A DNA stretch of 64,000 nucleotides. Source: Butyrivibrio sp. FCS014. GTDB lineage: Bacteria > Bacillota > Clostridia > Lachnospirales > Lachnospiraceae. Below, in pieces: positions 27,938 through 53,213 of the stretch; the first letter of the stretch is position 1; each line of letters opens with the position of its first letter. Made by a program: the position numbers and the translations under genes. The DNA lies in assembly GCF_000526935.1 (NCBI RefSeq), contig NZ_JAHA01000006.1:434001-498000 (forward strand). Direction: 5' to 3'. The notes under the pieces are model-generated. The model searched no databases. It worked only from the letters and a program-made list of their open reading frames with translations, and had not been told where the DNA came from.

Positions 27938-28097
27938 TTTGGACAAGATTTGCAAGGTTTTGACATAAAAATGAAGTGAAAATGGAATTGATTTACCTTA
28001 TGATGATATAGAAGTCGAAAGATAAACCCGCAATGAATCACGAAGTATCATGCTGATTCACGGCAATTCACAACGATTTATATGTATTGGAGGCATT

Positions 28098-28961
28098 ATG
28101 GAACTTAGAACAGCTTGTTCACCCAAGGACGAGAAATACTATGACACCAAGAGACTGAGAGAGGAATTCCTCATCGATGATCTGTTTCAGCCGGATACCA
28201 TTAAGCTGGTTTACAGCCACATCGACAGGATCATTACAGGATCCGCTGTACCGGTTAAGGAAGAGCTGAAGCTCACAGCAGGAGACGAGCTTAGAGCTGA
28301 GTATTTCCTGCAGAGACGCGAGATGGGGGTTATCAATATCGGCGGAGCCGGTGTTATCACCATCGACGGCAGGAAGTATGACGTAGATTACAAGCAGGGC
28401 ATGTACATTGGTATGGGGGCAAAAGATGTATCATTTGCCAGCACAGACAGCGCAAAGCCTGCCAAGTTCTATATCAACAGCGCACCTGCCCACAAGACCT
28501 ATCCCACTGTTCTTATTAAGAGAGAGGGAACACCTTCGGAAGACGTTGTCATCATCAAGGATGAGAACAAGAAGGAACTTGGAAGCCTTGAACAGGCCAA
28601 CCACAGAGTTATCAACAAGTATATTCTTCCCGGCCAGGTTGAGACCTGCCAGCTGGAGATGGGTATGACCGAGCTTAAGCCCGGCAGCGTATGGAATACA
28701 ATGCCCTGCCACACCCACGACAGAAGAATGGAAGTTTATCTGTACTTTGATATTCCCGAGGATGCACTGGTAATGCACTTCATGGGAGAACCCACAGAGA
28801 CAAGACACATCATAATGAGAAATGAGCAGGCCGTTATCAGCCCCAGCTGGTCCATCCACTCAGGATGCGGAACCCAGGCTTATACATTCATTTGGGGAAT
28901 GGTAGGAGAGAACCAGGATTTCGACGACATGGACGACTGTGCAATGACCGATCTTCTCTGA
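28098..28961 (+). CDS. kduI: 5-keto-4-deoxyuronate isomerase
   Basis: Converts 5-keto-4-deoxyuronate (from unsaturated uronates of pectin or similar glycans) to 2,5-diketo-3-deoxygluconate. The 287-residue cupin matches the family. The start is MELRTACSPKDEKYYDTKRLREEF-like, and the zinc site lies in PCHTHDRRMEVYLYFD. The start is ATG 28098 with GGAGG upstream. The longer frame from 28050 has no ribosome site. It is first of four co-oriented genes that make up the whole route to pyruvate and glyceraldehyde 3-phosphate. Confidence 0.94.
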   Translation: MELRTACSPKDEKYYDTKRLREEFLIDDLFQPDTIKLVYSHIDRIITGSAVPVKEELKLTAGDELRAEYFLQRREMGVINIGGAGVITIDGRKYDVDYKQGMYIGMGAKDVSFASTDSAKPAKFYINSAPAHKTYPTVLIKREGTPSEDVVIIKDENKKELGSLEQANHRVINKYILPGQVETCQLEMGMTELKPGSVWNTMPCHTHDRRMEVYLYFDIPEDALVMHFMGEPTETRHIIMRNEQAVISPSWSIHSGCGTQAYTFIWGMVGENQDFDDMDDCAMTDLL

Positions 28962-29021: not shown

Positions 29022-29876
29022 ATGGGAGACTTTTTAAAGAACTTTTCACTTGAGGGCAAGGTAGCATGGATCACAGGCGCATCCTACGGACTTGGCCTTG
29101 CTTATGCCGTAGCTTACGCAGAGAGCGGAGCTAAGATTGTTTTCAACGATATCAATCAGGAACTGGTTGACAGAGGCCTTGAGGAGTACAAGAAGCGCGG
29201 CATCGATGCTTACGGTGCAGTTTGTGATGTAACCAAGGAAGATCAGGTTCAGAAATTTGTTGCCGATGTTGAAGCCAAAGTTGGTTCAATCGACATTCTT
29301 GTTAATAATGCAGGTATCATCAAGAGAATCCCCATGCATGAGATGACCGTAGAGCAGTGGAACCAGGTTATCGATGTAGACCTTACAGGCCCCTTCATCT
29401 GCTCAAAGGCAGTTCTTCCCGCAATGATGAAGAAGGGCTCAGGCAAGATCATCAACGCCTGCTCAATGATGTCAGAGTTTGGCCGTGAGACAGTATCTGC
29501 TTATGCAGCTGCCAAGGGCGGACTTAAGATGCTCACAAGAAACATCTGCTCTGAGTACGGTCAGTACAATATTCAGTGCAATGCTATCGGACCCGGCTAT
29601 ATCGCAACACCTCAGACTGCACCTCTTCGTGAGAAGCAGCCCGACGGATCAATGCATCCCTTCGACAGATTTATCCGTTCCAAGACACCCGCTCAGAGAT
29701 GGGGCAGAACAGAGGACCTTATGGGTCTTGCAGTATTCCTTGCTTCTCCCGCTTCTGATTTCATCAATGGTCAGGTTGTTTATATCGATGGCGGTATCTC
29801 CGCATACATCGGACAGGATCCCGGAAACCTTGATCCTTCCAAGTTCACTGACATTGACGAGAGCACAGCTCAGTAA
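29022..29876 (+). CDS. kduD: 2-dehydro-3-deoxy-D-gluconate 5-dehydrogenase (SDR)
   Basis: NAD-dependent reduction of 2,5-diketo-3-deoxygluconate to 2-keto-3-deoxygluconate (KDG). A short-chain dehydrogenase of 284 residues with cofactor motif TGASYGLGLAYA, the NNAG strand, catalytic Ser in NACSMMS and YAAAK (Tyr-x3-Lys). GGGAGG precedes the ATG. It directly follows kduI, which supports the specific assignment over a generic SDR or gluconate 5-dehydrogenase. Confidence 0.9.
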   Translation: MGDFLKNFSLEGKVAWITGASYGLGLAYAVAYAESGAKIVFNDINQELVDRGLEEYKKRGIDAYGAVCDVTKEDQVQKFVADVEAKVGSIDILVNNAGIIKRIPMHEMTVEQWNQVIDVDLTGPFICSKAVLPAMMKKGSGKIINACSMMSEFGRETVSAYAAAKGGLKMLTRNICSEYGQYNIQCNAIGPGYIATPQTAPLREKQPDGSMHPFDRFIRSKTPAQRWGRTEDLMGLAVFLASPASDFINGQVVYIDGGISAYIGQDPGNLDPSKFTDIDESTAQ

Positions 29877-29933: not shown

Positions 29934-30896
29934 ATGGATAAGATTTGTGAAGAACTTTACAGGATCGGTATCGTGCCGGTAATCGCAATCGACGATGCAA
30001 AAGATGCAGAGCCCCTTGCCGAGGCACTTATAAAAGGCGGACTTCCCGCAGCTGAGGTTACTTTCAGAACCGCAGCAGCCGAGGAGGCAATCAGGATCAT
30101 TTCCGAGAAATTCCCCGAGATGATCGTTGGAGCAGGAACAGTGCTTAATGCCGAGCAGGCTGACAGAGCCAAGGCAGCAGGAGCAAAGTTCATCGTAAGC
30201 CCCGGATTTAACAGATCAAATGTTGAGTACATTCAGAGCATCGGTGTTCCCGTGGTTCCCGGAATCGCAACTCCCGGTGAAGTTGAGCAGGCTATAGAGC
30301 TTGGACTTGACTGCGTTAAGTTTTTCCCTGCCGAGCAGAACGGCGGAATCGCCAAGATCAAGGCAATGGCTGCACCTTACACCAAGATGCACTTCATGCC
30401 TACAGGCGGCATCAACAAGAACAACTTAAATGACTATCTTAGCTTTGACAAAGTTTTCTGCTGCGGCGGAAGCTGGATGGTGAAAAAAGATCTCATTGCA
30501 GCCGGAAAGTTCGATGAGATCGAGGCTATGACAAGAGACGCTGTAAGCGCAATGCTTGGCTTCAAGCTCAAGCACATCGGAATCAACCAGAACAGCGAAG
30601 GCGATGCCGAGAAGGTTGCCGACATGTTCGATAACCTCTTTGGATTCACCAAGAAGGTTGGTAACTCTTCAGTATTTGCAGGATCCTTCATCGAAGTAAT
30701 GAAGGCAAAGGGCCGCGGAGACTGCGGACATATCGCCATCGGCTGCAACAATATCGACAGAGCCGTTTATCACCTTGAAAGACAGGGTGTTAAGTTTGAG
30801 GAGGCATCACTTTCCTACGATGCTGACGGACACTTAAAGAACGCTTATCTTGAGGACGACTTTGGCGGCTTCAGAGTACACCTTGGCAAAAACTGA
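29934..30896 (+). CDS. KDPG/KHG aldolase fused to a VOC-like C-terminal domain
   Basis: Residues 1-205 are a class I KDPG/KHG aldolase, splitting 2-keto-3-deoxy-6-phosphogluconate to pyruvate and glyceraldehyde 3-phosphate. It has the catalytic Glu in AAEVTFRT and Schiff-base Lys in CVKFFPAEQNGG. The remaining ~115 residues (LKHIGINQNSEGDAEKVADMF to the end) resemble a vicinal-oxygen-chelate/glyoxalase-like domain. Single-domain Eda proteins are about 210 residues, so this is a fusion. The VOC part could bind sugar acid or metal, but its role is unknown. GAGAGG precedes the ATG. Confidence 0.88.
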   Translation: MDKICEELYRIGIVPVIAIDDAKDAEPLAEALIKGGLPAAEVTFRTAAAEEAIRIISEKFPEMIVGAGTVLNAEQADRAKAAGAKFIVSPGFNRSNVEYIQSIGVPVVPGIATPGEVEQAIELGLDCVKFFPAEQNGGIAKIKAMAAPYTKMHFMPTGGINKNNLNDYLSFDKVFCCGGSWMVKKDLIAAGKFDEIEAMTRDAVSAMLGFKLKHIGINQNSEGDAEKVADMFDNLFGFTKKVGNSSVFAGSFIEVMKAKGRGDCGHIAIGCNNIDRAVYHLERQGVKFEEASLSYDADGHLKNAYLEDDFGGFRVHLGKN

Positions 30897-30932: not shown

Positions 30933-31958
30933 ATGGCAAAAAAAGTAGTAACTTTCGGAGAGATCATGCTTCGCCTTCAGCCTGATAACTATTTAAGATT
31001 CGTTCAGGTTGATCACCTTGAGGCAACATTCGGAGGCGGAGAGGCCAACGTTTCAGTTTCTCTTGCTAACTACGGACTTGATTCTGTATATGTTACAAAG
31101 CTTCCTGCTCACGAGATCGGACAGGCAGCAGTTAATTCCCTTAGAAAATACGGTGTTGATACATCCAAGATCACCAGAGGCGGTGACAGAGTAGGTATCT
31201 ACTTCAACGAGAAGGGTGCTTCCCAGAGAGGTTCCAAGTGCATCTACGACAGAGCACATTCAGCCATTGCTGAGGCATCTCCCGCAGACTTTAACTGGGA
31301 TGAGATCTTTGAGGGAGCAGAGTGGTTCCACTTCACAGGCATCACTCCCGCTGTAAGCGATTCTCTTGCAGCCATCACTCTTGAGGCTGTTAAGAAGGCC
31401 AAGGAGCACGGCCTTACAGTATCCTGTGACCTTAACTACAGAGGTAAGCTCTGGAGTAAGGAGAAGGCAGGCAAGGTTATGGGTGAGGTTTGCAAATATG
31501 TTGATGTCTGCATCGCCAACGAAGAGGATGCCAACGACGTATTCGGTATCGCAGCTTCTTCCACAGATGTAACAACCGGTAAGCTCAACAGAGAGGGCTA
31601 CATCGAGGTTGCCCAGAAACTCACAGACAGATTCGGCTTCAAGAAGGTTGCCATCACACTTCGTGAGTCCATCTCAGCAAACGACAACAACTGGAGCGCA
31701 ATGCTCTACACCGATGGACAGGCTTACTTCTCCAAGAAGTATGCTCTTCACATCGTTGACAGAGTTGGCGGCGGAGACTCTTTTGGCGGCGGCCTTATTT
31801 ACAGCTGCGTAAACGGCTTCGATCCTCAGCAGACCATCGAGTTTGCAGTTGCCGCATCAGCTCTCAAGCACTCCATCGAGGGAGACTTCAACCTTGTATC
31901 CGTTGATGAGGTCAAGAAGCTTGCAGGCGGAGACGGCTCAGGTCGTATCCAGAGATGA
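30933..31958 (+). CDS. kdgK: 2-keto-3-deoxygluconate kinase, PfkB family
   Basis: Phosphorylates KDG to KDPG, the aldolase substrate. A ribokinase-fold kinase of 341 residues. It has an N-terminal GGGEANVSVSLANYG segment and the C-terminal PfkB signature DRVGGGDSFGGGL with the catalytic Asp. The sugar specificity is taken from the operon: it completes kduI-kduD-eda. ACGGAGG is present upstream. A terminator follows. Confidence 0.9.
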   Translation: MAKKVVTFGEIMLRLQPDNYLRFVQVDHLEATFGGGEANVSVSLANYGLDSVYVTKLPAHEIGQAAVNSLRKYGVDTSKITRGGDRVGIYFNEKGASQRGSKCIYDRAHSAIAEASPADFNWDEIFEGAEWFHFTGITPAVSDSLAAITLEAVKKAKEHGLTVSCDLNYRGKLWSKEKAGKVMGEVCKYVDVCIANEEDANDVFGIAASSTDVTTGKLNREGYIEVAQKLTDRFGFKKVAITLRESISANDNNWSAMLYTDGQAYFSKKYALHIVDRVGGGDSFGGGLIYSCVNGFDPQQTIEFAVAASALKHSIEGDFNLVSVDEVKKLAGGDGSGRIQR

Positions 31959-31993: not shown

Positions 31994-32035
31994 AAAAAGC
32001 GTCATGCGTTATTTAAATGCATGGCGTTTTTTTTT
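31994..32035 (+). terminator. Intrinsic terminator of the kdu operon
   Basis: GCGTCATGC pairs with GCATGGCG (one G-U) flanked by an A run and a nine-base T run. Confidence 0.8.
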
Positions 32036-32077
32036 ATAATGTAGACTGAACGAGTATGTAGCATACGAGGTGACGCA

Positions 32078-33253
32078 GTGGTACCGGAAGGCTGGATGAT
32101 TCTTAATTTTTATACGGCTCTTCTTTTGATCCTGCTCCTGTTTTTCCAGGGAAGAACAACCCGTACGGAATCAGGAGACAGGTTTATCAGATTGGACGTA
32201 ATGACCCTGATCCTTCTTGCCGCAGAGACCGTTGGCCATTTCGGAGAGATTTCCGGCGACCTCATACTGCTGTCAAAGATAGGATATTATATCATCTATG
32301 CCCTTGACCCGGCGTGCTATCTCTTTGCCATTCTTTACATTGACTGCTGGATAAATGAAGGCGAGAAGAGCATGGGACGAAAGCTCGTAACTGCCGCCTA
32401 CAAGATATTTGTGGCAGCAAACCTCATTGTTGTTACCGTTTCGACTCTTTTTGACCTTAAACTTCTCTATTATTTTGAGGGCGCAGAGTATTTCCGCGGG
32501 TCGCTGTTCTACGTAAGAGCAGTGCTCCTTTTGGTATTCTGTCTTCTTCTTTCCATATACTCCTATGTTTACAGGAAAAAAATCTACGCGGATTACCGGG
32601 GAGCTATCTTTGCACTGCCTACCCTTGCGATGATCGGCGCCTTTCTCCAGATAGTATTTGCAGAACTGGACATGACCTATGCTTCAATTGCCATTGGACT
32701 TCTTATCGTGTTCTGCAATCTTCAGTCCAACAACCTGGATGTGGATTATCTTACGGGAGCACTTAACAGAAGAGGCCTGGATATCAAGATGGAAGAGCGC
32801 ATAAGGATTGCGCAGGCCGGGGGAAAGACCTTCTCCGCCATCATGCTGGATCTTGACAGATTTAAGCAGATAAACGACACCTACGGCCATATGGAGGGGG
32901 ACTATGCCCTTAAGACTGTGTCGGACATACTTTACAGAGTCTTTTACCAGGGCGCGAGCATAGGAAGGTACGGAGGCGACGAGTTCTGCGTTATAACCGA
33001 TATCAACAGCAGACAGGAACTTGATTCCAGCCTTGATATACTTGAAGACGAGCTGGAGATTTGGAATTACAGGGGCGGCAAACCATACGAACTTGCCATA
33101 AGCTGCGGCAGCATGGTATATGACCCCGCCTCCAAGATGAGTGCCAAGGATTTCCAGATAGCCATAGATGAGCTTATGTATCATGAAAAGAGAAAGCACC
33201 ATCTTGTGGATAACAGAAGGAGGAGAACTGATGAAGCTGGACAAAACAACTGA
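32078..33253 (+). CDS. Seven-helix membrane diguanylate cyclase
   Basis: The N-terminal 220 residues contain about seven hydrophobic segments. The last (QIVFAELDMTYASIAIGLLIVFCNL) resembles the final helices of the kinase at 43228 and the HD-GYP at 46530. A GGDEF domain follows directly, with RYGGDEF near residue 299. The I-site position reads YQGA, so RxxD is absent. The start is GTG 32078. ATG 32096 (GGAAGG upstream) is an alternative. It overlaps the next gene, an HD-GYP phosphodiesterase, by 23 bases, so synthesis and degradation of cyclic-di-GMP are encoded on one transcript. Confidence 0.87.
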   Translation: MVPEGWMILNFYTALLLILLLFFQGRTTRTESGDRFIRLDVMTLILLAAETVGHFGEISGDLILLSKIGYYIIYALDPACYLFAILYIDCWINEGEKSMGRKLVTAAYKIFVAANLIVVTVSTLFDLKLLYYFEGAEYFRGSLFYVRAVLLLVFCLLLSIYSYVYRKKIYADYRGAIFALPTLAMIGAFLQIVFAELDMTYASIAIGLLIVFCNLQSNNLDVDYLTGALNRRGLDIKMEERIRIAQAGGKTFSAIMLDLDRFKQINDTYGHMEGDYALKTVSDILYRVFYQGASIGRYGGDEFCVITDINSRQELDSSLDILEDELEIWNYRGGKPYELAISCGSMVYDPASKMSAKDFQIAIDELMYHEKRKHHLVDNRRRRTDEAGQNN

Positions 33254-34490
33254 GTCGATTTTGATCTTCCTGATATCTTTTGTGTTTATTATCAGTGCAT
33301 ATTATGTCAGCAGGGTGGCTGTGGTCGACTATGTTTCCTCGGAGTATCATCTTGAAATGGATCTGACGGGAGCAAGGCTGTCTGATATGGTCTACGCCAC
33401 CGTGAAAAGGTCAAGTCAGTGGACGACCAAGTACGGGCATGGTGCGCAGTTTGATTTTGTTTTGCACAATCACAGCAATTCCGAGATCAATAACTGGAAC
33501 ATCTCCATGGAAGTTCCGGAAGGGTCTGACATTTCCCAGCACAACGGTATCGGCGTCAACGTCGAGAAGGGAAAAGTAATACTTGAACCTGACAGTGACC
33601 ATCTTACCCTAAAGAGAAATACTCCCATAGAGTTCAGTATTGTCATTAATACCCAAGAGCCTTTTTACCCGGAAAAGCTCGGTTTTACAGGATATCAGAG
33701 GGGCGTCTTCGCTGAGAGTATCGCCAACAACGTTATCTTTCTGGCCTTCATGATATGGGCATTTTTGTTCGTTGGCTTTTTTGTTACCAGATTCAATCTC
33801 AAGAATTACCGCGAGAAACAGAAGAACGATGTCAGGATCATCCTTCAGTCAATGAATACATTCATCAGCTTCATTGATGCCAAGGATCCTTATACCAGGG
33901 GCCATTCAAGGCGTGTTGCTATGTACGCTGCGGAAATTGCCAAGAGAATGAGGCTTTCGGAGGACGAAGTCCAGAATATCTATTATGCGGGTCTTCTCCA
34001 CGATGCAGGTAAGATAAGCATCCCCGATGCTGTTCTGAATAAGCCCGGGAAACTCACTGATGAAGAGAGAAAGCAGATCCAGGAGCACACCGTAGCAGGC
34101 GGAAAGATGCTAAAACAGCTGTCCTCACTTCGCGGAATACGAGAGACGGCTCTTTACCATCATGAAAGATACGACGGCAAAGGCTACCCTGAGGGACTTA
34201 AAGGTGAGTCCATACCTCTTTATGCAAGGATCGTGGGAGTTGCCGATTCCTATGATGCCATGTCCAGTAACAGAGTTTACAGAAGGCACCTTAGCAAAGA
34301 CGAGATCATAGAGGAAATCCAGAAGGGATCCTCAACACAATTTGATCCAAATGTGGTACCCTATATGGTAGACATGATCAATGACGGCTATGTAAATGTA
34401 GTTAAGATGGAGACAGCGGATTCCGATGACAAGTCCTCCGATTTCCACCTTACCGAGGACGATATCCCCAGTGTTTACATGGGCTTCTGA
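33231..34490 (+). CDS. HD-GYP phosphodiesterase with extracytoplasmic CBM2-like domain
   Basis: Predicted cyclic-di-GMP phosphodiesterase. A first transmembrane helix (about 9-28) and a second (about 172-192) enclose ~140 extracytoplasmic residues. That segment has spaced Trp residues and a beta pattern (QWTTKYGHGAQFDFVLHNHS, then NNWNISMEVPEG) reminiscent of family 2 carbohydrate-binding modules. The cytoplasmic HD-GYP domain is intact: HSRRVAMYA, HDAGKISIPDAVL, HTVAGGKML and HHERYDGKGYPEG. The start is ATG 33231 with AAGGAGGAG upstream, inside the diguanylate cyclase gene. Confidence 0.88.
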   Translation: MKLDKTTESILIFLISFVFIISAYYVSRVAVVDYVSSEYHLEMDLTGARLSDMVYATVKRSSQWTTKYGHGAQFDFVLHNHSNSEINNWNISMEVPEGSDISQHNGIGVNVEKGKVILEPDSDHLTLKRNTPIEFSIVINTQEPFYPEKLGFTGYQRGVFAESIANNVIFLAFMIWAFLFVGFFVTRFNLKNYREKQKNDVRIILQSMNTFISFIDAKDPYTRGHSRRVAMYAAEIAKRMRLSEDEVQNIYYAGLLHDAGKISIPDAVLNKPGKLTDEERKQIQEHTVAGGKMLKQLSSLRGIRETALYHHERYDGKGYPEGLKGESIPLYARIVGVADSYDAMSSNRVYRRHLSKDEIIEEIQKGSSTQFDPNVVPYMVDMINDGYVNVVKMETADSDDKSSDFHLTEDDIPSVYMGF

Positions 34491-34527: not shown

Positions 34528-36396
34528 ATGGCAAAATTTGAGATCAAAGACACTTTCTATCTGGACGGAGAGCCCTTTAAGGTAATCTCCGGAGCATTTC
34601 ATTTCTTCAGGACAGTTCCCGAGTACTGGGAGGACAGACTCCTTAAGCTTAAGGCTATGGGATGCAACACAGTCGAGACCTACATTCCCTGGAATCTCAT
34701 TGAACCCGAGCAGGGCAGATTCAATTTTGAGGGCATGTGCGACGTGGAAGGCTTTCTTAAGCTGGCAACAAAACTCGGGCTCTATATCATCGTAAGACCA
34801 TCCCCTTACATCTGCGCCGAGTGGGAGTTCGGCGGACTTCCCGCATGGCTTTTAAAGGACAGAAACATGAGGCTTCGCGTTAGCTACAAGCCTTTTCTTG
34901 ATGCAGTGGAGGAGTATTATAAGGTTCTTTTCCCGAAAATCACGGGATATCAGATCGACAACGGCGGCAATATCATACTGATGCAGGTGGAAAATGAGTA
35001 CGGCTACTACGCCAACGATCATGAGTACATGAACACCATGGTGGAACTCATGAGAAAGCATGGAGTAACCGTTCCACTCATCACCTCCGACGGCCCCTAT
35101 CATGAAAGTTACAGGGGCGGCTCCGTTCCCGGGGCACTTCCCACAGGAAACTTCGGATCAGGTACGGAAAAGAGATTTGGCGTCCTTTCGGAGTATACAA
35201 ATGGCGGACCTTCCATGTGTGCTGAATTCTGGGTTGGCTGGTTTGACCACTGGGGCAACGGCGGCCACATGAAGGGCAACCTTGTGCAGAGCTGCGAGGA
35301 TCTTGATAAGATGCTGGAGCTTGGAAACGTCAGCATCTACATGTTTGAGGGAGGCACCAACTTTGGCTTCATGAATGGCTCCAATTACTATGACGCCCTT
35401 ACTCCCGATGTTACAAGCTATGACTACGACGGCCTTCTTACCGAGGACGGCCGAATAACAGAGAAATACAGGAAGTTTAAAGAGATAATCGAAAAGCATA
35501 CCGGCAAGGCAGAGGTTTTAGAGTTTACCGATGCACCAAGAAAGAGCTACGGCAAACTCGAGTGCACCGGAAAGGTAAGTCTCTTTTCCGTGGCTGATGA
35601 TCTCAGCACTCCGGTGAAGCTTTCCTACACCACAAATATGGAGGACCTTGGCCAGAACTACGGCTACATTCTCTACAGATCTCATCTTCACAGCGAGGCA
35701 GGAATTGCCAAGCTTCGCCTCTGGGAGACCGCTGACAGGGCTAATGTATTTGTGGATGAGAACCCTCTTATCACTCTCTACGACAAAGAACTTGGGAGTG
35801 AGCATGACATTGCCCTTGATAAGTACCTTGCCTGCAGCACCCCTGCAATGATGCTGGCGGGTAAGTTCATGGCAGAGAACGGCTTAACTCCCGAGACCGC
35901 CATGGGAGCCATTTCCGAGGCAGGCCTTTCCACAGGCAGCTTTATGGGGCTTAACGAGAAGTTTGATATTCTTGTGGAGAACATGGGAAGAGTCAACTTC
36001 GGACCTATGATGGAGACCCAGAGAAAGGGCATTTGCCGCTGCGTTCAGATAAACGGCCATATGCACAACGGCTGGGATATCTATACACTGCCGCTGGATA
36101 ACATCGATAAGGTTGACTTTGACAAGGAGTACAAGGAGAATGTTCCCGCCTTCTACAGATTTGAGTTTGAGGGCGGCGAAAAGGGCGATACCTTCCTTGA
36201 CTTTGAGGGATGGGGCAAGGGCGTTGCCTTCATCAACGGCTTCAACCTTGGAAGATTCTGGGAGATAGGACCTCAAAAGAGGCTGTATATTCCCGCACCT
36301 CTCATAAGAGAGGGCAGGAATGAGATCGTAATCTTCGAGACCGAGGGAAAGGCTCCGGGGACCATAGAATTAAAAGATGAACCTGATATTGGTTAA
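34528..36396 (+). CDS. Beta-galactosidase, GH35
   Basis: Removes terminal beta-galactose from oligosaccharides. A GH35 TIM barrel opens with FHFFRTVPEYWEDRLLKLKA-type sequence and IVRPSPYICAEWEFGGLP. The catalytic acid/base is in MQVENEYGYY (about residue 155-157) and the nucleophile in CAEFWVGWFDHWG (about 232). C-terminal beta-sandwich domains follow. At 622 residues it matches bacterial intracellular GH35 enzymes, and no signal peptide is present. ACGGA precedes the ATG. Its stop overlaps by 4 bases the stop of the convergent serine hydrolase. Confidence 0.93.
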   Translation: MAKFEIKDTFYLDGEPFKVISGAFHFFRTVPEYWEDRLLKLKAMGCNTVETYIPWNLIEPEQGRFNFEGMCDVEGFLKLATKLGLYIIVRPSPYICAEWEFGGLPAWLLKDRNMRLRVSYKPFLDAVEEYYKVLFPKITGYQIDNGGNIILMQVENEYGYYANDHEYMNTMVELMRKHGVTVPLITSDGPYHESYRGGSVPGALPTGNFGSGTEKRFGVLSEYTNGGPSMCAEFWVGWFDHWGNGGHMKGNLVQSCEDLDKMLELGNVSIYMFEGGTNFGFMNGSNYYDALTPDVTSYDYDGLLTEDGRITEKYRKFKEIIEKHTGKAEVLEFTDAPRKSYGKLECTGKVSLFSVADDLSTPVKLSYTTNMEDLGQNYGYILYRSHLHSEAGIAKLRLWETADRANVFVDENPLITLYDKELGSEHDIALDKYLACSTPAMMLAGKFMAENGLTPETAMGAISEAGLSTGSFMGLNEKFDILVENMGRVNFGPMMETQRKGICRCVQINGHMHNGWDIYTLPLDNIDKVDFDKEYKENVPAFYRFEFEGGEKGDTFLDFEGWGKGVAFINGFNLGRFWEIGPQKRLYIPAPLIREGRNEIVIFETEGKAPGTIELKDEPDIG

Positions 36397-41082: not shown

Positions 41083-43209
41083 GTGGATATTAACTTTCGA
41101 CGCCTTAACCGAAGCAGCTTTCGCTGCAAGGTTTACGGTACTCTTTGCATAATTCTTAATGTAAGCCTTGCTTATATGGCTCACACTTTTGGGCTGCCTT
41201 TGTATCTTGATACAATAGGCACCATCATAATGGCATCCCTGGGCGGTTTTCTGCCCGGTATCTTTGTTGCGGTCTTTACCAGTCTTTTATGCTGCTTTTT
41301 CAGTGGGGATGCCCTCTACTATACTCTTTCAAATGTAATGGCTGCCCTGGTTACAGTCTGGTTTGTCAGGGCGGGCGGCTTCAGGAAGAAAAAGAATCCT
41401 GTCATTTATTTTATTTTACTTGTCGTTCTGACAGGTCTTTATAACGGCGGAGTTCAGTGGCTTCTAAGCGGAGGCCCCTCTTTCTCGGAGGTGGTGTATG
41501 CTTCGTACCAGCTGAGTGCAAAAACCCATATAGGGTATGTTGCCGCTTCGCTGCTCATTGATATTGGTCTAAACGCATTGGACAAAGCCACCACAGCGTT
41601 GATAGCTCTTTTCATCATACTGCTGATACCTGAGGCTGAGAGAAAGGCTATCTGGGACAGCAACTGGAAACAGGCACCCGTTTCAAGGGATGAGATGTAT
41701 GAGAGGGTAAGATCTGCCAACAAGCGGACCATTCAGAAGAAGATGGGTATGATACTGTCTGTTACAGCACTCCTTCTAGTAATTGTTATGGTCTGGACCG
41801 GCATCAGCGTTTTCTACAGCAATACCAAGGCAGAATACACCGATAACGCCAGGAAAGCGGCGCGTTTTGCAGCCAGTGTGGTTGACGGCGACAGGATCGA
41901 TGATTACATTACCAAGGGCAGAGCGGTGCCGGGATATGAGCAGACTGAAGCCCTGCTTTATAAGATCCGGGACAATGTTACCGGACTTAAATATCTGTAT
42001 GTCATAAGGGTCACGCAGGACAGTATCTATTATGTGTTTGATCTTCATTCCGGCGATTTCCCCGCCATGGAACCCGGGGACGCGGTTCCTGTGGAGAGTT
42101 ATTTCGAGCCATACCTTGAGGGATTCCTTGCAGGCAGGGAGATTGAGCCCATCGAGTCCGACAATATTTCCGGCTGGGTAATGGCTGCATATTATCCCAT
42201 CAAAGACAGCAGCGGGAAGACTGTTGCCTATGCGGGAGCGGACTCCTCAATGGTCATCATGTCCGACTATACCAAAGAATACCTGCTGAAGATCTTCCTT
42301 ATCTTCTCCGGTTTCTTTGTGCTTATACTTGGATACGGAATCTGGAATTCAGGATTCTATCTGTCTTACCCCATTACCAGCATGACCAAGTGCGTTCAGG
42401 AGTTTGTGGATTCGGACAGGGATCAGAAGTCGCTGGATGACAATGTCAAGAAGATAAGAGCCCTTGATATTCACACCATGGATGATGTGGAGGACCTCTA
42501 CAAGGCCATATGCGAGATGGAAGCCAATATGACGGAGCAGATGAGAGAGCTTCGTCACTACGCCGATGCTACCTCAAAGATGCAGAGCGGCCTTATCATC
42601 ACCATGGCGGACCTTGTGGAGAACAGGGATTCCGACACCGCAGCCCACATTCAGAAGACTGCGGCTTATGTAAAGATAATAGTGGAGGCGCTTAAGAGAA
42701 AGGGCTATTACGCCGAGAAGATCACGCCTTCCTTTGAAAACGATATTGTGAATTCTGCGCCTCTCCATGATATTGGCAAGATCCATATTCCGGATGCAAT
42801 TTTAAATAAACCCGGCAAGCTCACCCCTGAGGAGTTTGAGATCATGAAGACTCATACCACAGCCGGAATGAATATCATGGAAAAGGCAATAAATACAACC
42901 CAGGGAGAATCCTACCTTAAGGAGGCCAGAAACATGGCTGCCTACCACCACGAGAGGTGGGATGGCAAAGGTTATCCCGAAGGGCTTCACGGACAGGTTA
43001 TACCGCTTTCAGCCAGGATAATGGCAGTAGCGGATGTTTTTGATGCTCTGGTTTCCAAAAGAATCTACAAGCCTGCTTTCTCCTTTGAAAAGGCCCTTGA
43101 GATCATCCAGGAGGGTTCAGGGACCCAGTTTGATCCCAAGTGTGTAGAGGCATTTATGGATTCGTTGACTGAAGTCAGGATTGTCCTCAAGACTTTCCAG
43201 GAAATGTGA
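41083..43209 (+). CDS. HD-GYP phosphodiesterase with S-component-like membrane domain and Cache sensor
   Basis: Residues about 15-205 form a multi-pass domain resembling the substrate-binding S component of ECF transporters (LYLDTIGTIIMASLGGFLPG). A further transmembrane helix (about 222-242) leads to an extracytoplasmic Cache-like domain (about 245-400), another helix (about 405-425), a HAMP-like linker and a C-terminal HD-GYP domain (LHDIGKIHIPDAILNKPG, HHERWDGKGYPEG). Predicted role: cyclic-di-GMP breakdown controlled by an outside ligand. The start is GTG 41083 after GGGGGGAAA. The first gene of a tight cluster; gaps between its five genes are 5-24 bases. Confidence 0.87.
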   Translation: MDINFRRLNRSSFRCKVYGTLCIILNVSLAYMAHTFGLPLYLDTIGTIIMASLGGFLPGIFVAVFTSLLCCFFSGDALYYTLSNVMAALVTVWFVRAGGFRKKKNPVIYFILLVVLTGLYNGGVQWLLSGGPSFSEVVYASYQLSAKTHIGYVAASLLIDIGLNALDKATTALIALFIILLIPEAERKAIWDSNWKQAPVSRDEMYERVRSANKRTIQKKMGMILSVTALLLVIVMVWTGISVFYSNTKAEYTDNARKAARFAASVVDGDRIDDYITKGRAVPGYEQTEALLYKIRDNVTGLKYLYVIRVTQDSIYYVFDLHSGDFPAMEPGDAVPVESYFEPYLEGFLAGREIEPIESDNISGWVMAAYYPIKDSSGKTVAYAGADSSMVIMSDYTKEYLLKIFLIFSGFFVLILGYGIWNSGFYLSYPITSMTKCVQEFVDSDRDQKSLDDNVKKIRALDIHTMDDVEDLYKAICEMEANMTEQMRELRHYADATSKMQSGLIITMADLVENRDSDTAAHIQKTAAYVKIIVEALKRKGYYAEKITPSFENDIVNSAPLHDIGKIHIPDAILNKPGKLTPEEFEIMKTHTTAGMNIMEKAINTTQGESYLKEARNMAAYHHERWDGKGYPEGLHGQVIPLSARIMAVADVFDALVSKRIYKPAFSFEKALEIIQEGSGTQFDPKCVEAFMDSLTEVRIVLKTFQEM

Positions 43210-46529: not shown

Positions 46530-48926
46530 ATGATGGAATTCTTGCTTGCGCACCAACTGAATATCATTTCGTTTTTGACCGGAATAGGTGTTATCATCAC
46601 CCTTTTTGCCATTATAGCCAGTTCACTTTCGAGAAACAGGCGAATTGCCCTTGTCATGCTGGAGATAAGCGCGATAATTCTTCTTAACTTTGACCGCCTT
46701 GCCTACATGTATGACGGAGATCCGAGCATTAAGGGATATTACATGGTTCGCATCAGCAATTTCCTGGTCTTCTTTATGACGCTGGTGGTTATCTTTTCCT
46801 TTAACCTGTATATCGAGGATGTTCTTGTTATCGACTGCGGTATTAAGAAGGTACCAAAGCGGATAAAGGCTGCAGGTATCATTCTGACTGTAGGCATGGT
46901 GCTGGTTGTTATCTCGCAGTTCACGGGTCTTTATTATACCTTCGATGAATCCAATAAGTACCACAGAGCTCCTCTGTTCATGATCTGTTACATCCTGCCG
47001 ATTATTGCGCCTATAATAGAGTTTACGGTGGCTTATCAGTACAGAAGACTGATGAGCAGGCATATCTACATATCACTGATAGTGTTTATCGTAGGACCTT
47101 TGATCTCGTCATTCATACAGATATTCTTCTACGGTTTCTCTTTTACAGATATGGCCTTTATTATCGCGGCAGCGGTTCTGTTTATCTTTGCCCTGGTGGA
47201 CATCAACGAGAAGGTCAGACATGCCAACACTATTGAGATCAATTATCTGAAGCAGGAGAGCGAGAATGCCCAGAGGCTTTTTGGCCAGATGGCTGCTGCT
47301 TTCATCGGAGCCATTGAGGAGAAGGAGCCCTTCAGTATAGGGCATTCGCAGAGAGTTGCATCTTATTCCGCGGAGATTGCCAGAAGAAGCGGCAAGAGCG
47401 AAGAGGAGTGCAAGGAAGTCTATTACTCCGCGCTGATGCATGACGTGGGCAAGATTGGTATTCCCATAGCAATACTGCAGAAATCCGAGAAGCTCACAGA
47501 GGAAGAGGAACAGGTCATGAGGGAACATGTTTCCATCGGACAGCGTATCCTCTCCAGCGTAAGCGAATATCCTTATCTTAGTATCGGAGCTCATTACCAT
47601 CACGAGAGGTACGACGGAAGCGGATATCCCGAGGGACTTTCGGGAAAAGACATACCGGAGATAGGAAGGATCATCTGCGTGGCGGATCATTACGACAGGA
47701 TGACCACCAGAAAGCGCTACAGAGGGCCTCTGCCTCAGGCTGTAGTAAGGGATGAGGTTATAAGGCGCGCCGGTTCACAGTTTGATCCGGATTTTGCAGG
47801 CATCATGGTCAAAATGATCGATGCTGACAGCGAGTACAAGATGCAGGAGAAGGGTGAGCAGCTTCCTCCCAAGGAAAAGCTTACCTGCGATGAATACAGA
47901 AGTGATATCCTTGAGGGTATCGTTATTACTCCCGGGGTCAAATCCATTAAGTTTATGTGCAGGAGGGAAGTAACCTCCGAGGATCAGTTTGGCGCACCTT
48001 CCGTGATAGTATTTGATGCCTATGACGGGCTTGTTCATGACGACGAACTGACCATCAAGGCTTTCTCCTATCTCGAATACGGCGAGATATGGTTTGACGG
48101 CCATATCATCTCCACAGGGGCCAGGAATATGGTGATAAAGCCTGTGGGAGATCCTGATGCGAAAAAAGAAACGAGGGGCAGGAACAGGACAAGACAGTAT
48201 GAGGTGCAGGCAGGAAGATTTGAGGATCATGTCAAGATCCGCATGATCTCACCTGAAGAGACAAACGAAGTCACCATAGCTCTTCCCAACAGTTCCAAAT
48301 ATGCCTTCATAGGACTTACGGGCGAGCATTGTCTTATCACCGACATTCAGGTGGAAGAGACAGGAAAAATACTGTATGAAGGCGATATAGAAAGGATAGC
48401 TGAGAGGGTTGATTACACCAACAGGATGGAGAGTGACATCCCCAATATCCAGATAAACGGCCCGAAAGCAGATGCCACCAATGGAATTGTGGTGGAAGAC
48501 GGGTTGGAACTCTTGTTTCATTCCATGAGCCTGCCTACAGCATCACTCCTGTGGCAGTGCGCCTATGTAATGCTGTTTTCCTCGGATGATAATACCATCT
48601 TCGGAGAGAACTACCATGAGTATGCCCATCTTAAGATGAACGGTGAAAATGAATGGCAGGGAAATTACTCCGAGAACAGCTCTCAGGTAATGAAGGACGA
48701 CAAATTCGAAAGCTGGGAGAAGTGGGAGGAACGCAACAAAAAAGGTGTTGAATGCCATGTCTCTTTTGCAAGAAGAGGAAATAAGATCATCACCACCACA
48801 AAGTGCGCGGGCCTTATCATGAGGAATACTACAACACTATTAGAAAAAACAAAGGAAGTTTACTGCTCACTTTCAGGAGACCAGTGTGCTCTCACCGATA
48901 TCAGAGTAAAGAAACCAAGGTTTTAA
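46530..48926 (+). CDS. Seven-helix HD-GYP phosphodiesterase with unknown C-terminal domains
   Basis: The N-terminal ~230 residues match the sensor of the kinase at 43228 closely: EFLLAHQLNIISFLTGIGV versus DFLREHQLNIMMSLASICG, both with MVRISNF and VISQFTG/VVSQFTG. HD-GYP follows with SIGHSQRVASYSAEI, MHDVGKIGIP and HHERYDGSGYPEG (about 265-420). The last ~330 residues (470-798) are beta-rich and unlike any output domain I recognise. They appear to hold two or three sandwich-like units, the last around VEDGLELLFHSMSLP. ATG 46530 or 46533 is the start. Confidence 0.85.
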   Translation: MMEFLLAHQLNIISFLTGIGVIITLFAIIASSLSRNRRIALVMLEISAIILLNFDRLAYMYDGDPSIKGYYMVRISNFLVFFMTLVVIFSFNLYIEDVLVIDCGIKKVPKRIKAAGIILTVGMVLVVISQFTGLYYTFDESNKYHRAPLFMICYILPIIAPIIEFTVAYQYRRLMSRHIYISLIVFIVGPLISSFIQIFFYGFSFTDMAFIIAAAVLFIFALVDINEKVRHANTIEINYLKQESENAQRLFGQMAAAFIGAIEEKEPFSIGHSQRVASYSAEIARRSGKSEEECKEVYYSALMHDVGKIGIPIAILQKSEKLTEEEEQVMREHVSIGQRILSSVSEYPYLSIGAHYHHERYDGSGYPEGLSGKDIPEIGRIICVADHYDRMTTRKRYRGPLPQAVVRDEVIRRAGSQFDPDFAGIMVKMIDADSEYKMQEKGEQLPPKEKLTCDEYRSDILEGIVITPGVKSIKFMCRREVTSEDQFGAPSVIVFDAYDGLVHDDELTIKAFSYLEYGEIWFDGHIISTGARNMVIKPVGDPDAKKETRGRNRTRQYEVQAGRFEDHVKIRMISPEETNEVTIALPNSSKYAFIGLTGEHCLITDIQVEETGKILYEGDIERIAERVDYTNRMESDIPNIQINGPKADATNGIVVEDGLELLFHSMSLPTASLLWQCAYVMLFSSDDNTIFGENYHEYAHLKMNGENEWQGNYSENSSQVMKDDKFESWEKWEERNKKGVECHVSFARRGNKIITTTKCAGLIMRNTTTLLEKTKEVYCSLSGDQCALTDIRVKKPRF

Positions 48927-48932
48927 CAGGTT

Positions 48933-51900
48933 ATGATAATCAGAAATGCACTTGAAAAAACAGTGCGGCTTGCACTTATATTATGTCTGGGGATAGGTGC
49001 CCTTACAGGGCCTTCTTTGGCTGCAGCGGCAGCAGAGAGCGGTCCTGATACGGATTTATCCGACAGCCTTGCCAGCAACAGCGGCAAATACACCACCGTT
49101 GTCTATGACAACAAGAACGGTCTGCCCACATCCGAAGCCAACGCCATTGCGGAAACCGATGACGGCTTTATATGGATCGGCTCCTACAGCGGCCTTATCA
49201 GATTCGACGGCTACAACTTTGTCAGGATCAATTCGGCCTCGGGAATTGCCAGCGTTGTAAGCCTCTTTGTTGATTCAAAGCAAAGGCTCTGGATAGGGAC
49301 CAATGACAGCGGCCTCGCCCTTATGACAAAGGGCGACCTTAAGATGTTCGGCAAACATGACGGGCTTCCCGCACTGTCCGTTCGCTCCATTGTTGAGGGA
49401 GACGACGGAAAGATCTATATTGCCACCACCGGCGGCCTGTGCATAATGGACACTGACATGAATATCACGGTTCCGGATATACCACAGATCAAGGATGAGT
49501 ACATCCACAGATTGGCCAAGGGCCCGGAAGGGCTTATCTACGGCCTTACCAAGGATGGAACCGTCTTTACCGTAAAGGGGATGGAGCTTTTTGAAATTTA
49601 TCCTGCAAATAGCCTTGGCTTTAGCGAAATCGCCCATGCAATCCTTCCGGATCCCGCAAATCCCGGCTATGCCTACCTTGGAACCCAGGGCTCCGAGGTA
49701 TACTACGGCAGATTCGAAAAGTCTTTTACCTCAGAAAAATCTTATAACTTAAAGCGCCTTGAGTATATCAATGCACTCAGGATGGAGCAGGGCAGGCTCT
49801 GGGTCTGCGCCGACAACGGCATCGGGTCCGTTTCCGATGATTCCATCCATTACTACGACAACCTTGAATTCAGAAATTCCCTCGAGGATATGATGACCGA
49901 TTACCAGGGGAATCTCTGGTTTATCTCCTCCAAGCAGGGTGTCATGAAGGTCGCCTTCAACCAGTTCACGGATCTTACAAGGCAGTACAACCTTGAACCC
50001 ACCATCGTTACATCCACTTGTCTTTACGACAACAAGCTCTTTATCGGCAACAAGAACGGCGGTCTTATTGTTCTGGGAAAAGATTCAGCGGCTTCCAGGA
50101 TAGCAATTACAGAGGCGGTCACTGCATCAGGTAAACCCATCATAGCAAAGAATCTTCTGGAGATGCTAAAGGGCGTCACTGTAAGATCCATAATAAAGGA
50201 CAAGAAGAACAACCTCTGGATGTCTACCTACAGCAAGTATGGTCTCATATGCTTTACCGGAAGCAAGGTCATCTGCTATACGGAAGATGACGGCCTTCCT
50301 TCCAACAGGGTAAGGATCGTTTACGAGCGCTCCAACGGAGACATTATTGTCGGAAGTATAGGCGGAGTTGTCATCTTAAGAGGTGGAAAGATTGTAGACA
50401 GATACGACGAAGAAGACGGCATCATCAATACCGAAATCCTGTCCGTAACTGAAACGCAGGACGGCAAGATCCTGGTTGGCTCAGACGGAGACGGCATCTA
50501 TGTTATTAGCGATACCGGAATATCCCACATCGGTACAGACGACGGTCTGGCGTCGGATATTGTCATGAGGATCAAGCAGGATCCCAAGAGACCCGATATC
50601 AACTGGATAGTATTAAGTAACTCCATCGGCTATCTGGATAAGGACTTAAAACCTACGATTCTGAGGAACTTCCCCTATTCCAACAACTTCGATATTTTTT
50701 TTGACAGATTCGGACAGGCCTGGATCCTTAGCAGCAACGGAATATATGTGGTTCCCGACAAGCAGCTTCTTAGCAATGCAGACAGCTACGACTACGATTT
50801 CTATGATTCCACAAACGGCCTTCCCTGCATCGCAACAGCAAACTCCTACAGCGAAATCAACGGGAACGGTGATCTGTATATTGCGGGAAGTACCGGTGTT
50901 GCCAAGGTCAATATCAATCAGCCCTTTGAAGATGTGAGCTCCCTCAAGGTCGATGTTCCCTATATCGAAGCGGACGGAAACTTTGTCTATGCGGATGGAG
51001 ATGGTGTGTATAAAATCCCCAGCGATGCCAAGAAGGTGGATATCACGGGATATGTTTTCACATATTCTTTGATGAATCCGTACATAACCTATTATCTTGA
51101 GGGCTTTGATACCACTAAGTACACAGCCAAGAGGACAGAGTTTAACACCATAAGCTATACGAACCTTCCCGGCGGCAAATACAGATTTGTAATGGACATC
51201 CAGGATGCCCGGGGTACATCCATGAAGGAGTTTGCCATAAACATCAACAAGGAAAAGGCCTTCTATGAGTATGCGGCCTTCAGGGTGATGTTCATTTTGG
51301 TTGCCATGGGTCTTATGGCGCTTTTAGTATGGCGGCTTATGCATATCACCATCATAAGCAGGCAGTACGAGCAGATAAGAGCAGCAAAGGAGGATGCGGA
51401 GAGAGCCAACACAGCTAAGTCCAGATTCCTTGCAAATATGTCCCATGAGATTAGGACACCTATCAATACCATCATGGGCATGAATGAGATGATAGCAAGA
51501 GAAGCAGACACCTCAGATCCCGAGGAATATGTCCAAAACGTAAAGGGCTATTCCAGAAACATCAAGATTGCATCGGAATCTCTTTTGAGCCTTATCAATG
51601 AACTTCTGGATCTGTCTAAAATAGAATCCGGAAAGATGGAGCTGGTGGAGCAGGAGTACAGCGTTGAGGATCTGCTTAAGTCTCTCACCATGATGATAAG
51701 GGTAAGAAGCAACCAGAAGGACCTTACCTTTTCTACCGAGATTGATGAGACCCTTCCGAAGACTCTTTACGGAGACTGCAACAAGCTCAGGGAGATACTT
51801 TTAAACCTTCTGACCAATGCCGTGAAATATACCGACAAGGGCGGCTTTACTCTTATTGTAAAAAATATGCTGACGGCGGGGGATGCTTCAAGGATATACT

Positions 51901-53213
51901 TTGCAGTTAAGGACACCGGCATCGGCATCAAGCCCGAGGATATGGACAAGCTCTTTACCGCCTTCAAGAGACTTGAGGAGGTTAAGAACAGCGGCATTCA
52001 GGGCACGGGACTTGGCCTTGATATCTCAAGGCAGTACGTGGAGCTTATGGGCGGAAACCTTGAGTGCAGCAGTACCTACGGCGAAGGCTCCACATTCTTT
52101 TTCACAATTACCCAGAAGGTGGTAAATAAGGAGCCTATCGGTACCTTTACCGAGGAGGTTGAAGGTCCGGCCCTTAGCAAGTACGTTCCGCCGTTTATTG
52201 CTCCTGATGCAAAAGTGCTGGTTGTTGACGACAACGAGATGAACCTTCAGGTCATCAAGGGACTTCTTAAGCACTTGAAGCTGAAGCTCACCCTTGTGAC
52301 CAGCGGAAAAGAGTGCCTTAAAAAACTGGATGAAGAGTCCTATCATATCGTTCTTCTTGACCATATGATGCCTGAGATGGACGGTGTGGAGACCCTTTCA
52401 CATATCAGGGAGAAGTTCCCGGACCTTATCGTCATAGCCCTTACCGCTAATGTTATGAACGGCGGCGTGGATTTCTATGTAAAGGCAGGATTTACGGATT
52501 ACCTCTCCAAGCCTGTTGATGCAAGTCAGCTTGAGGCAGCACTTCGGTATTACCTGCCGGAGGATATCGTTCAGGATGTGGACGAAGAACAGGCGGCAAA
52601 AGAGGCAGCGGCCAAGGAAGAGGAGATAGCTCTTCCCGAGAGTGAGAGATGGCTCTATGACGTTGAGGGCCTGAATGTGTCGGAGGGCCTTAAGTACACG
52701 GGAATGCCTGCCCAGTTCATTAAATTTGTGAATGCCTTCTATGACACCATGGACGAGAAGTCGGAGGAAATTGAGAAGGCCTTTGAGGATAAGGATTACA
52801 AGCTCTACACCATCAAGGTACATGCCCTAAAGAGTACCGCGAGGATCATGGGAGCAATGCAGCTTTCAAAGCTGGCGGAGGAGCTTGAGGCAGCAGGCAA
52901 CAACGGCGATATTGCAAAGATCGAGAGCTCTACGGGAACACTTCTTTCCATGTACAGAGCCTACAAGGACAAGCTCTCAAGGATCAAGGAGGAGCCTGAG
53001 GATGATGACAGGATCCCCATCTCGGAAGCAGATCTTGCCAATGCCTATGATGCCATCAAGGAATTCGTTCCCCAGATGGACTACGACGCTGTGGAGATGG
53101 TGCTGGGCGAACTGAAGGAATACAGGCTTCCGCCGGAGGATGAAAAGAAAATCAAAGAGATTGGAAGACTTCTTAAGAACATCGACTGGGACGGAATAGA
53201 AGAACTGCTATAA
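48933..53213 (+). CDS. Hybrid histidine kinase with extracellular two-component propeller sensor
   Basis: 1426 residues. A signal peptide (about 1-32) precedes ~700 residues of reg_prop repeats ([26 protein letters not shown] and others) forming beta-propellers. Then come a Y_Y_Y domain ([22 protein letters not shown]), one transmembrane helix (about 783-803), HisKA (MSHEIRTP, His near 838) and HATPase ([21 protein letters not shown]). A receiver ([16 protein letters not shown]), Hpt ([11 protein letters not shown]) and a ~65-residue tail follow. The sensor layout is that of Bacteroides-type hybrid glycan sensors, but the DNA-binding AraC domain is replaced by Hpt. A terminator follows. Confidence 0.93.

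Follow-up and report, generated by a model that had tools for sequence, protein, structure and literature searches.

What signal governs an enzyme of cyclic di-GMP (c-di-GMP) turnover? To our knowledge, the ligands of such enzymes are mostly unknown, and a sensor whose ancestry names a class of ligands would provide candidates that can be tested. One gene in a 64,000-nucleotide stretch of the Butyrivibrio sp. FCS014 genome (contig NZ_JAHA01000006.1, positions 434,001 to 498,000; hereafter the window) raises this question, as it encodes a membrane protein with an ectodomain resembling the family 2 carbohydrate-binding module (CBM2) and a cytoplasmic HD-GYP phosphodiesterase domain. The ectodomain is related by descent to the CBM2s that GH5 cellulases carry, the catalytic residues of the enzyme are conserved, and the same architecture recurs across the genus and beyond it. 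We lean, if only slightly, towards reading this protein as a membrane receptor in which a CBM2-derived sensor would place the HD-GYP output under the control of a glycan.

Architecture of the receptor

The features of the receptor gene are as follows.

33231-34490, + strand: receptor coding sequence, transmembrane (TM) helix, CBM2-like ectodomain, TM helix, HD-GYP domain, 419 amino acids (Pfam, model, hydropathy)
33252-33326, + strand: TM helix 1, residues ~8-32 (model helix 5-32; hydropathy peak 3-21)
33333-33725, + strand: extracytoplasmic domain, residues ~35-165, with a CBM2-like core at ~50-157 (Pfam, profiles, fold)
33705-33791, + strand: TM helix 2, residues ~159-187, continuing as a long cytoplasmic helix to ~218 (model, hydropathy)
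33861-34355, + strand: HD-GYP domain (Pfam HD_5, PDB comparison, ligand alignment)

An AGGAGG motif at 33218-33223 precedes the ATG at 33231 by 7 nt, and an alternative in-frame ATG lies at 33168; because both this Shine-Dalgarno sequence and the orthologs favour 33231, we place the start there. The segment between the two TM helices, about 130 residues long, is all-beta in the predicted structure (residues ~35-157). The initial annotation had described this open reading frame as a beta-rich segment between two membrane helices with an HD-GYP domain inside, had noted an N-x-S-x-x-x-I-x-x-W pattern and had proposed co-encoding with a diguanylate cyclase, all of which is borne out. The pattern reads N80-H-S82-N-S-E-I86-N-N-W89, with N80 and W89 invariant across 36 aligned sequences including the FCS014 receptor, and a GGDEF gene shares its last 23 nt with the receptor gene. 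The nearest named relatives, which are Butyrivibrio records, are as much as 91% identical along the full length.

Descent and fold of the ectodomain

A search of 200 genomes of the bacterial family, with the ectodomain and its flanking helices as query, found two main kinds of relatives, namely other HD-GYP proteins and enzymes bearing a CBM2, the latter being GH5 cellulases (PF00150 in 5 of 5 checked by Pfam). Pfam CBM_2 was matched in 14 of 14 enzyme-linked modules of the GH5-linked profile A2 (best 1e-15) and by all 15 HD-GYP-linked domains at E <= 1 (best 1.6e-11). When compared with the PDB, a profile of these 15 domains matched the CBM2s of EngD (9.4e-11) and Cex (6.7e-8), and it aligned with the GH5-linked profile at an hhalign probability of 99.9%. 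The FCS014 ectodomain itself scored 54.3 bits on the GH5-linked profile, which was built from proteins found with this very ectodomain, whereas the PDB search is independent of it. The best of the shuffled sequences (2,000 shuffles, 1,815 of them scored) reached 8.1 bits, and a chance resemblance to CBM2 is rejected on this ground. Furthermore, 38 of 38 Butyrivibrio proteins (37 loci and FCS014) fell below E 1e-3 on the same profile, with a minimum of 29.1 bits. Three receptors from outside Butyrivibrio (L003, L008 and L302; 3 of 3 checked) exceed the Pfam cut-offs for both HD_5 and CBM_2, the latter with 41.2, 29.8 and 33.7 bits, respectively, so that automatic domain databases probably hold this combination, unremarked.

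Structure prediction followed by a fold search, the check proposed in the initial annotation together with the CBM2 resemblance, led to the same result. The AlphaFold model of the ectodomain (36-sequence alignment; mean predicted local distance difference test, pLDDT, 82.3; predicted template modelling score, pTM, 0.74) is a CBM2-type sandwich, and the first solved structures matching it were CBM2s by both Foldseek and VIA-align, by which it passes the structural test. In VIA-align the two top rows were CBM2s with Z 13.2 (root-mean-square deviation 2.0, 99 residues) and 13.0, followed by part of a chitinase (Z 11.2), and the best plainly unrelated row was an integrin (Z 9.7). A generic immunoglobulin-like sandwich, as matched in integrin and adaptin with Z up to 9.7, was considered and rejected, since the top two CBM2s are ahead by more than 3 Z and good sequence-level matches were obtained only to CBM2s. 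Homology to CBM2 is hence established at the level of the family, and the CBM2 beta-sandwich is the fold of the predicted model.

The HD-GYP enzyme

The partner of the CBM2-like domain is an HD-GYP domain and not a carbohydrate-active enzyme. HD_5 matched the receptor with 147.5 bits (E 4.2e-43; cut-off 27.2), and the catalytic residues H225, H257, D258, H286, H310, H311 and D339 are present together with the GYP motif at 318-320. Compared with PmGH, whose metal ligands are listed in the accessible part of PMC4159591, seven of eight ligands are kept, and Y221 stands where PmGH has E185. This substitution places the receptor in the subfamily with Y or F at that position, for which a binuclear centre is predicted as likely in the same part of that source (PMC4159591). 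All 38 aligned sequences agree at the seven ligands, at K261 (equivalent to PmGH K225) and in the GYP motif.

Among PDB entries, the top rank was taken by 5z7c (V-cGAP3), a 3'3'-cyclic GMP-AMP (cGAMP)-specific phosphodiesterase, with 3.2e-47 when summed over several stretches; its best single stretch (8.4e-35) equals that of PmGH (4mcw; 7e-35). Both share the catalytic domain with the receptor and differ from it in their sensors. Since the catalytic residues are present, it is plausible that the receptor lowers c-di-GMP.

The binding face and what it may sense

In Cex, W17, W54 and W72 form what we take to be the cellulose-binding face. Aligned to Cex and to the GH5-linked profile, the FCS014 ectodomain carries W64, N105 and D123 at these positions, where the pairing of W64 with W17 crosses a loop of differing length and is the least sure of the three.

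33420-33422, + strand: W64, the sole retained binding-face aromatic of three, equivalent to Cex W17 (alignment)
33495-33497, + strand: W89, invariant core Trp of the CBM2 fold (alignment)
33543-33545, + strand: N105, at the second face Trp position, Cex W54 (alignment)
33597-33599, + strand: D123, at the third face aromatic position, Cex W72 (alignment)

We tallied the face aromatics of 132 domains in four groups. The core Trp equivalent to W89 is kept throughout (37/37 in Butyrivibrio, 20/20 in HD-GYP receptors outside the genus, 57/57 in GH5-linked domains and 18/18 in domains with other partners). All three face aromatics are found in each of the 57 GH5-linked domains and in 13 of the 18 with other partners, of which four have two and one has a single one. 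The HD-GYP receptors outside Butyrivibrio possess both Trp in 20 of 20 cases and the third aromatic in 11. The W-N-D pattern of FCS014 is common to its receptor and its two nearest relatives (L029 and L030).

For the receptor family, glycan sensing is plausible and would be the most economical reading. On the outer side of the membrane, a glycan fragment that is either soluble or borne by the wall would bind the aromatic face of the ectodomain, formed by two Trp in the members outside Butyrivibrio; binding would then shift the two TM helices and the long helix leading into a dimeric HD-GYP domain, and this shift would alter the hydrolysis of a cyclic dinucleotide, most likely c-di-GMP, with the co-translated diguanylate cyclase acting as the opposing enzyme.

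Several points speak against such a mechanism. On its own, the FCS014 ectodomain stays below the Pfam CBM_2 cut-off of 24 (18.7 bits, E 0.0023; 15.7 bits with the full-length receptor), and the predicted model of the full-length protein is weak (pTM 0.46). The 37 Butyrivibrio domains retain three face aromatics in nine cases, two in 15, one in 11 (FCS014 included) and none in two. The ectodomain has a net charge of -7, giving no hint of a polyuronate binder. Of 30 Butyrivibrio strains, not one grew on cellulose, as stated in the accessible part of PMC6912079, which makes a hemicellulose fragment likelier as a ligand than cellulose. Finally, because 5z7c is as near to the enzyme as PmGH, its substrate need not be c-di-GMP.

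The proposal of the initial annotation that the domain reads polysaccharide directly is weakened for the FCS014 copy: N and D replace two of the three face aromatics, leaving it without the planar aromatic face of a CBM2, and no wall-spanning spacer is present. In 20 of 20 cases the domain has a TM helix on either side, at 18-56 residues from TM helix 1 and at most 12 to TM helix 2 as estimated by hydropathy. The domain thus sits flush with the membrane, and with this geometry it could hardly extend across the wall as far as insoluble fibre. Given the two lost aromatics and the missing spacer, insoluble cellulose, xylan and pectin are unlikely direct ligands. As the classical face is mostly gone, the ligand in the FCS014 lineage may be a changed glycan, a glycan bound mainly by W64 and polar residues, or not a glycan, and we regard glycan sensing by the FCS014 copy itself as rather doubtful.

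Alternatively, the fold may have been repurposed in Butyrivibrio, where it would mediate dimerisation, contact a protein partner or sense a small molecule through another surface, with glycan binding lost and the fold core and a juxtamembrane motif kept. The absence of at least one face aromatic from 28 of the 37 Butyrivibrio domains, and of two from FCS014, fits this explanation, as do the invariant residues (L45, G47, L50, N80, N88, W89, P120, F135 and G154), which exclude the face. However, a Trp occupies the 54-position in 26 of 37 domains and an aromatic the 72-position in 28 of 37, and relatives outside the genus retain the two-Trp face; we judge such a repurposing to be rather unlikely.

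Distribution and evolution

The receptor layout was found in 37 Butyrivibrio loci. Within the genus, the receptor is matched at E <= 1e-20 in 44 of 79 genomes, and both domains lie in a single open reading frame in 30 of 30 fetched loci. In the family, 113 of 397 genomes have a profile match at 0.001. Matches outside Butyrivibrio, fetched and classified down to about 1.6e-12, comprise 20 HD-GYP proteins, 56 distinct GH5 proteins (58 rows, with one protein appearing three times) and 18 others, where the GH5 class denotes similarity to the enzyme part of L005, with PF00150 confirmed in 5 of 5 checked. No CBM2-GGDEF protein is among these classified matches. Beyond the family, the fetched loci contained no HD-GYP case in 295 order-level genomes and one HD-GYP receptor, in another family of the class, in 391 class-level genomes.

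Pairwise identity among the 38 Butyrivibrio sequences averages 0.89 in the HD-GYP domain versus 0.35 in the ectodomain. Because the sensor has diverged this fast over a frozen enzyme, ligands probably differ between Butyrivibrio species. Alignments A3 and A4 leave out L044 (insertion) and L059 (duplicate). With respect to the origin of the fusion, free trees need three changes for the sensor and two for the HD-GYP domain, and well-supported branches of the HD-GYP tree force two; a constraint to a single fusion clade gave p-values of the approximately unbiased test of 0.515 and 0.591. The trees are compatible with one origin, which is not rejected, and with two.

Tentatively, and with more reservation than for the glycan-controlled receptor as such, we propose a receptor class in Lachnospiraceae and at least one other family, in which a membrane-flush CBM2 of the GH5-cellulase type, with fast-changing specificity over a frozen HD-GYP enzyme, would read plant-wall oligosaccharides and directly set c-di-GMP hydrolysis. 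If true, this would link the sensing of plant fibre to the switch between motile and sessile life in rumen and gut bacteria.

Some copies deserve separate mention. Genome G424 holds a weaker receptor (L250:2341-3564; 1.4e-11, which the cut-off of 1e-20 excludes) that is 47% identical to the FCS014 receptor, with HD_5 confirmed and an ectodomain below Pfam CBM_2. Two receptor copies each occur in the metagenome-assembled genome RUI079 (L029, L034) and in G458 (C107, C116; 7% contamination), which probably reflect mixed bins.

Genomic neighbourhood

The receptor gene and its diguanylate cyclase (DGC) gene lie behind genes of uronate metabolism and ahead of a GH35 gene.

28050-28961, + strand: kduI, 5-keto-4-deoxyuronate isomerase (NF002091, 438.5 bits)
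29022-29876, + strand: short-chain dehydrogenase/reductase (SDR) of the gluconate 5-dehydrogenase/KduD type (NF005488, 460.8 bits)
29934-30896, + strand: eda, 2-keto-3-deoxy-6-phosphogluconate (KDPG) aldolase, with a C-terminal extension of ~110 residues (model match)
30933-31958, + strand: kinase of the 2-keto-3-deoxygluconate (KDG) kinase (kdgK) type (best matches include KDG kinase models, all below their own cut-off)
31994-32032, + strand: intrinsic terminator between kdgK and the DGC gene (hairpin of -19.8 kcal/mol with T run)
32012-32040, + strand: promoter-like TTTAAA-17-TATAAT, overlapping the terminator end (motif match)
32078-33253, + strand: membrane diguanylate cyclase, GGDEF (Pfam; 23-nt overlap with the receptor gene)
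34528-36396, + strand: GH35 beta-galactosidase, downstream neighbour (Pfam)

Promoter-like sites in this region are not above chance (13 found versus 11.8 expected). The initial annotation had pointed to the GH35 and uronate genes; both are indeed nearby, but of the two only the uronate genes recur as neighbours across the genus, with a terminator standing between them and the receptor. GH35 is directly downstream in 2 of 37 Butyrivibrio loci and ~6.5 kb away in 13 more, some loci being short on the downstream side. In contrast, kdgK is upstream in 37 of 37, with the next gene, 78-268 nt away, being the receptor in 27 and a DGC in 10 (the spacing of DGC and receptor was obtained for nine of these ten). 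A terminator-like hairpin (dG <= -15 kcal/mol and a T run) lies behind kdgK in 36 of 37 loci, whereas none of 111 shuffles and none of 37 coding stretches has one; this count comes from folding, and a stricter scan that allowed no mismatch gave 5 of 37. Given the terminator in the gap, the c-di-GMP genes most likely form their own transcription unit behind the uronate operon.

A long, fused eda is present in 56 of 79 genus genomes, while others give only a match of ~205 residues; by eye, the extension resembles a glyoxalase-type domain.

Could the receptor gene nevertheless function within the uronate operon, reporting pectin breakdown? Its position behind kdgK in 37 of 37 loci, with at most a DGC between, would suit this role. 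Likewise, 42 of 45 sensor places in the 79 genus genomes follow the fused eda at a distance of 1.2-2.6 kb, and the two are associated by genome (42 with both, 2 with the sensor only, 14 with the fused eda only, 21 with neither; Fisher p 9e-8, kinship ignored). Moreover, among the 14 of 56 fused-eda genomes without a sensor match at E <= 1e-20, G424 included, a DGC fills the receptor slot in five loci; two further loci end directly behind kdgK. This slot DGC stands alone and is of the FCS014 kind in L233 and L235; it is of another kind, 30-38% identical to the FCS014 DGC, in L244, L245 and L246. The same 14 genomes count against the role as well, as does the terminator. Furthermore, the receptor of G424 is not next to kdgK, and the 6 kb covered at its locus contain no uronate gene; at the 20 receptor loci outside Butyrivibrio (two of them short, 4.1 and 7.3 kb) a search at 1e-8 for uronate genes found only two SDR matches of ~30% identity. 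Membership in the uronate operon is thus quite improbable. A pectin or uronate ligand deduced from the neighbourhood was likewise not adopted, in view of the terminator, the negative charge of the ectodomain, the G424 receptor and the lack of linkage outside Butyrivibrio.

Comparison with known systems

The receptor ectodomain has the fold (Z 13.2 and 13.0), the core Trp and profile homology in common with CBM2 (PF00553; Cex of C. fimi, 1exg and 6qfs; EngD of Clostridium cellulovorans, 3ndy). Unlike these proteins, it is part of a signalling enzyme, in which a TM helix precedes and another follows it, and unlike the CBM2s of EngD and Cex, the FCS014 copy has one of three face aromatics and, taken alone, does not reach the Pfam cut-off. 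Its closest sequence kin found are the CBM2s that GH5 cellulases carry within the bacterial family; they differ from it in being enzyme-borne and in keeping all three face aromatics in each of 57 domains.

The nearest known logic, with a CBM outside and a signalling domain inside, is that of the RsgI anti-sigma factors of Clostridium thermocellum, whose sensors are CBM3, CBM42, PA14 or GH10 in the accessible part of PMC4711584. In that part, RsgI differs by its sigma-factor output, by other CBM families and by a transmembrane/wall-spanning segment (PMC4711584); the cytoplasmic part of our receptor is HD-GYP in place of an RsgI-type anti-sigma domain. If the glycan-controlled receptor is real, it would add a CBM fold as input domain of a cyclic-dinucleotide enzyme to the use of CBMs in RsgI. 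Sensing or anchoring to the cell's own wall, capsule or exopolysaccharide with feedback on c-di-GMP, rather than to food polysaccharide, is the least probable explanation. The membrane-flush position would favour it, by contrast with the wall-spanning RsgI sensors (PMC4711584, accessible part), but the nearest kin found belong to cellulases. A CBM2-HD-GYP receptor was not found described in the open PMC literature, as judged mostly from listings of matching papers, a scope that excludes subscription papers and preprints.

The c-di-GMP network and other signalling genes

The 4.1-Mb genome has 63 GGDEF and 17 HD_5 matches, and since it also carries five PilZ matches and one c-di-GMP-I riboswitch, outputs for c-di-GMP exist. 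Within the window, two more HD-GYP proteins of 708 and 798 amino acids are encoded at 41083-43206 and 46530-48923; genes for hybrid histidine kinases lie between the two and behind them. One hybrid kinase of 1426 amino acids (48933-53210) combines two-component-regulator propeller repeats, Y_Y_Y, HisKA, HATPase, receiver and Hpt domains, and resembles the hybrid two-component sensors of Bacteroides. The gene at 10977-12875 fuses a sugar-binding domain of the periplasmic-binding-protein/LacI type to GGDEF, and its product is possibly a second receptor leading from sugar to c-di-GMP. Two neighbouring GGDEF proteins are encoded at the start of the window, at 1253-1726 and 2786-3226.

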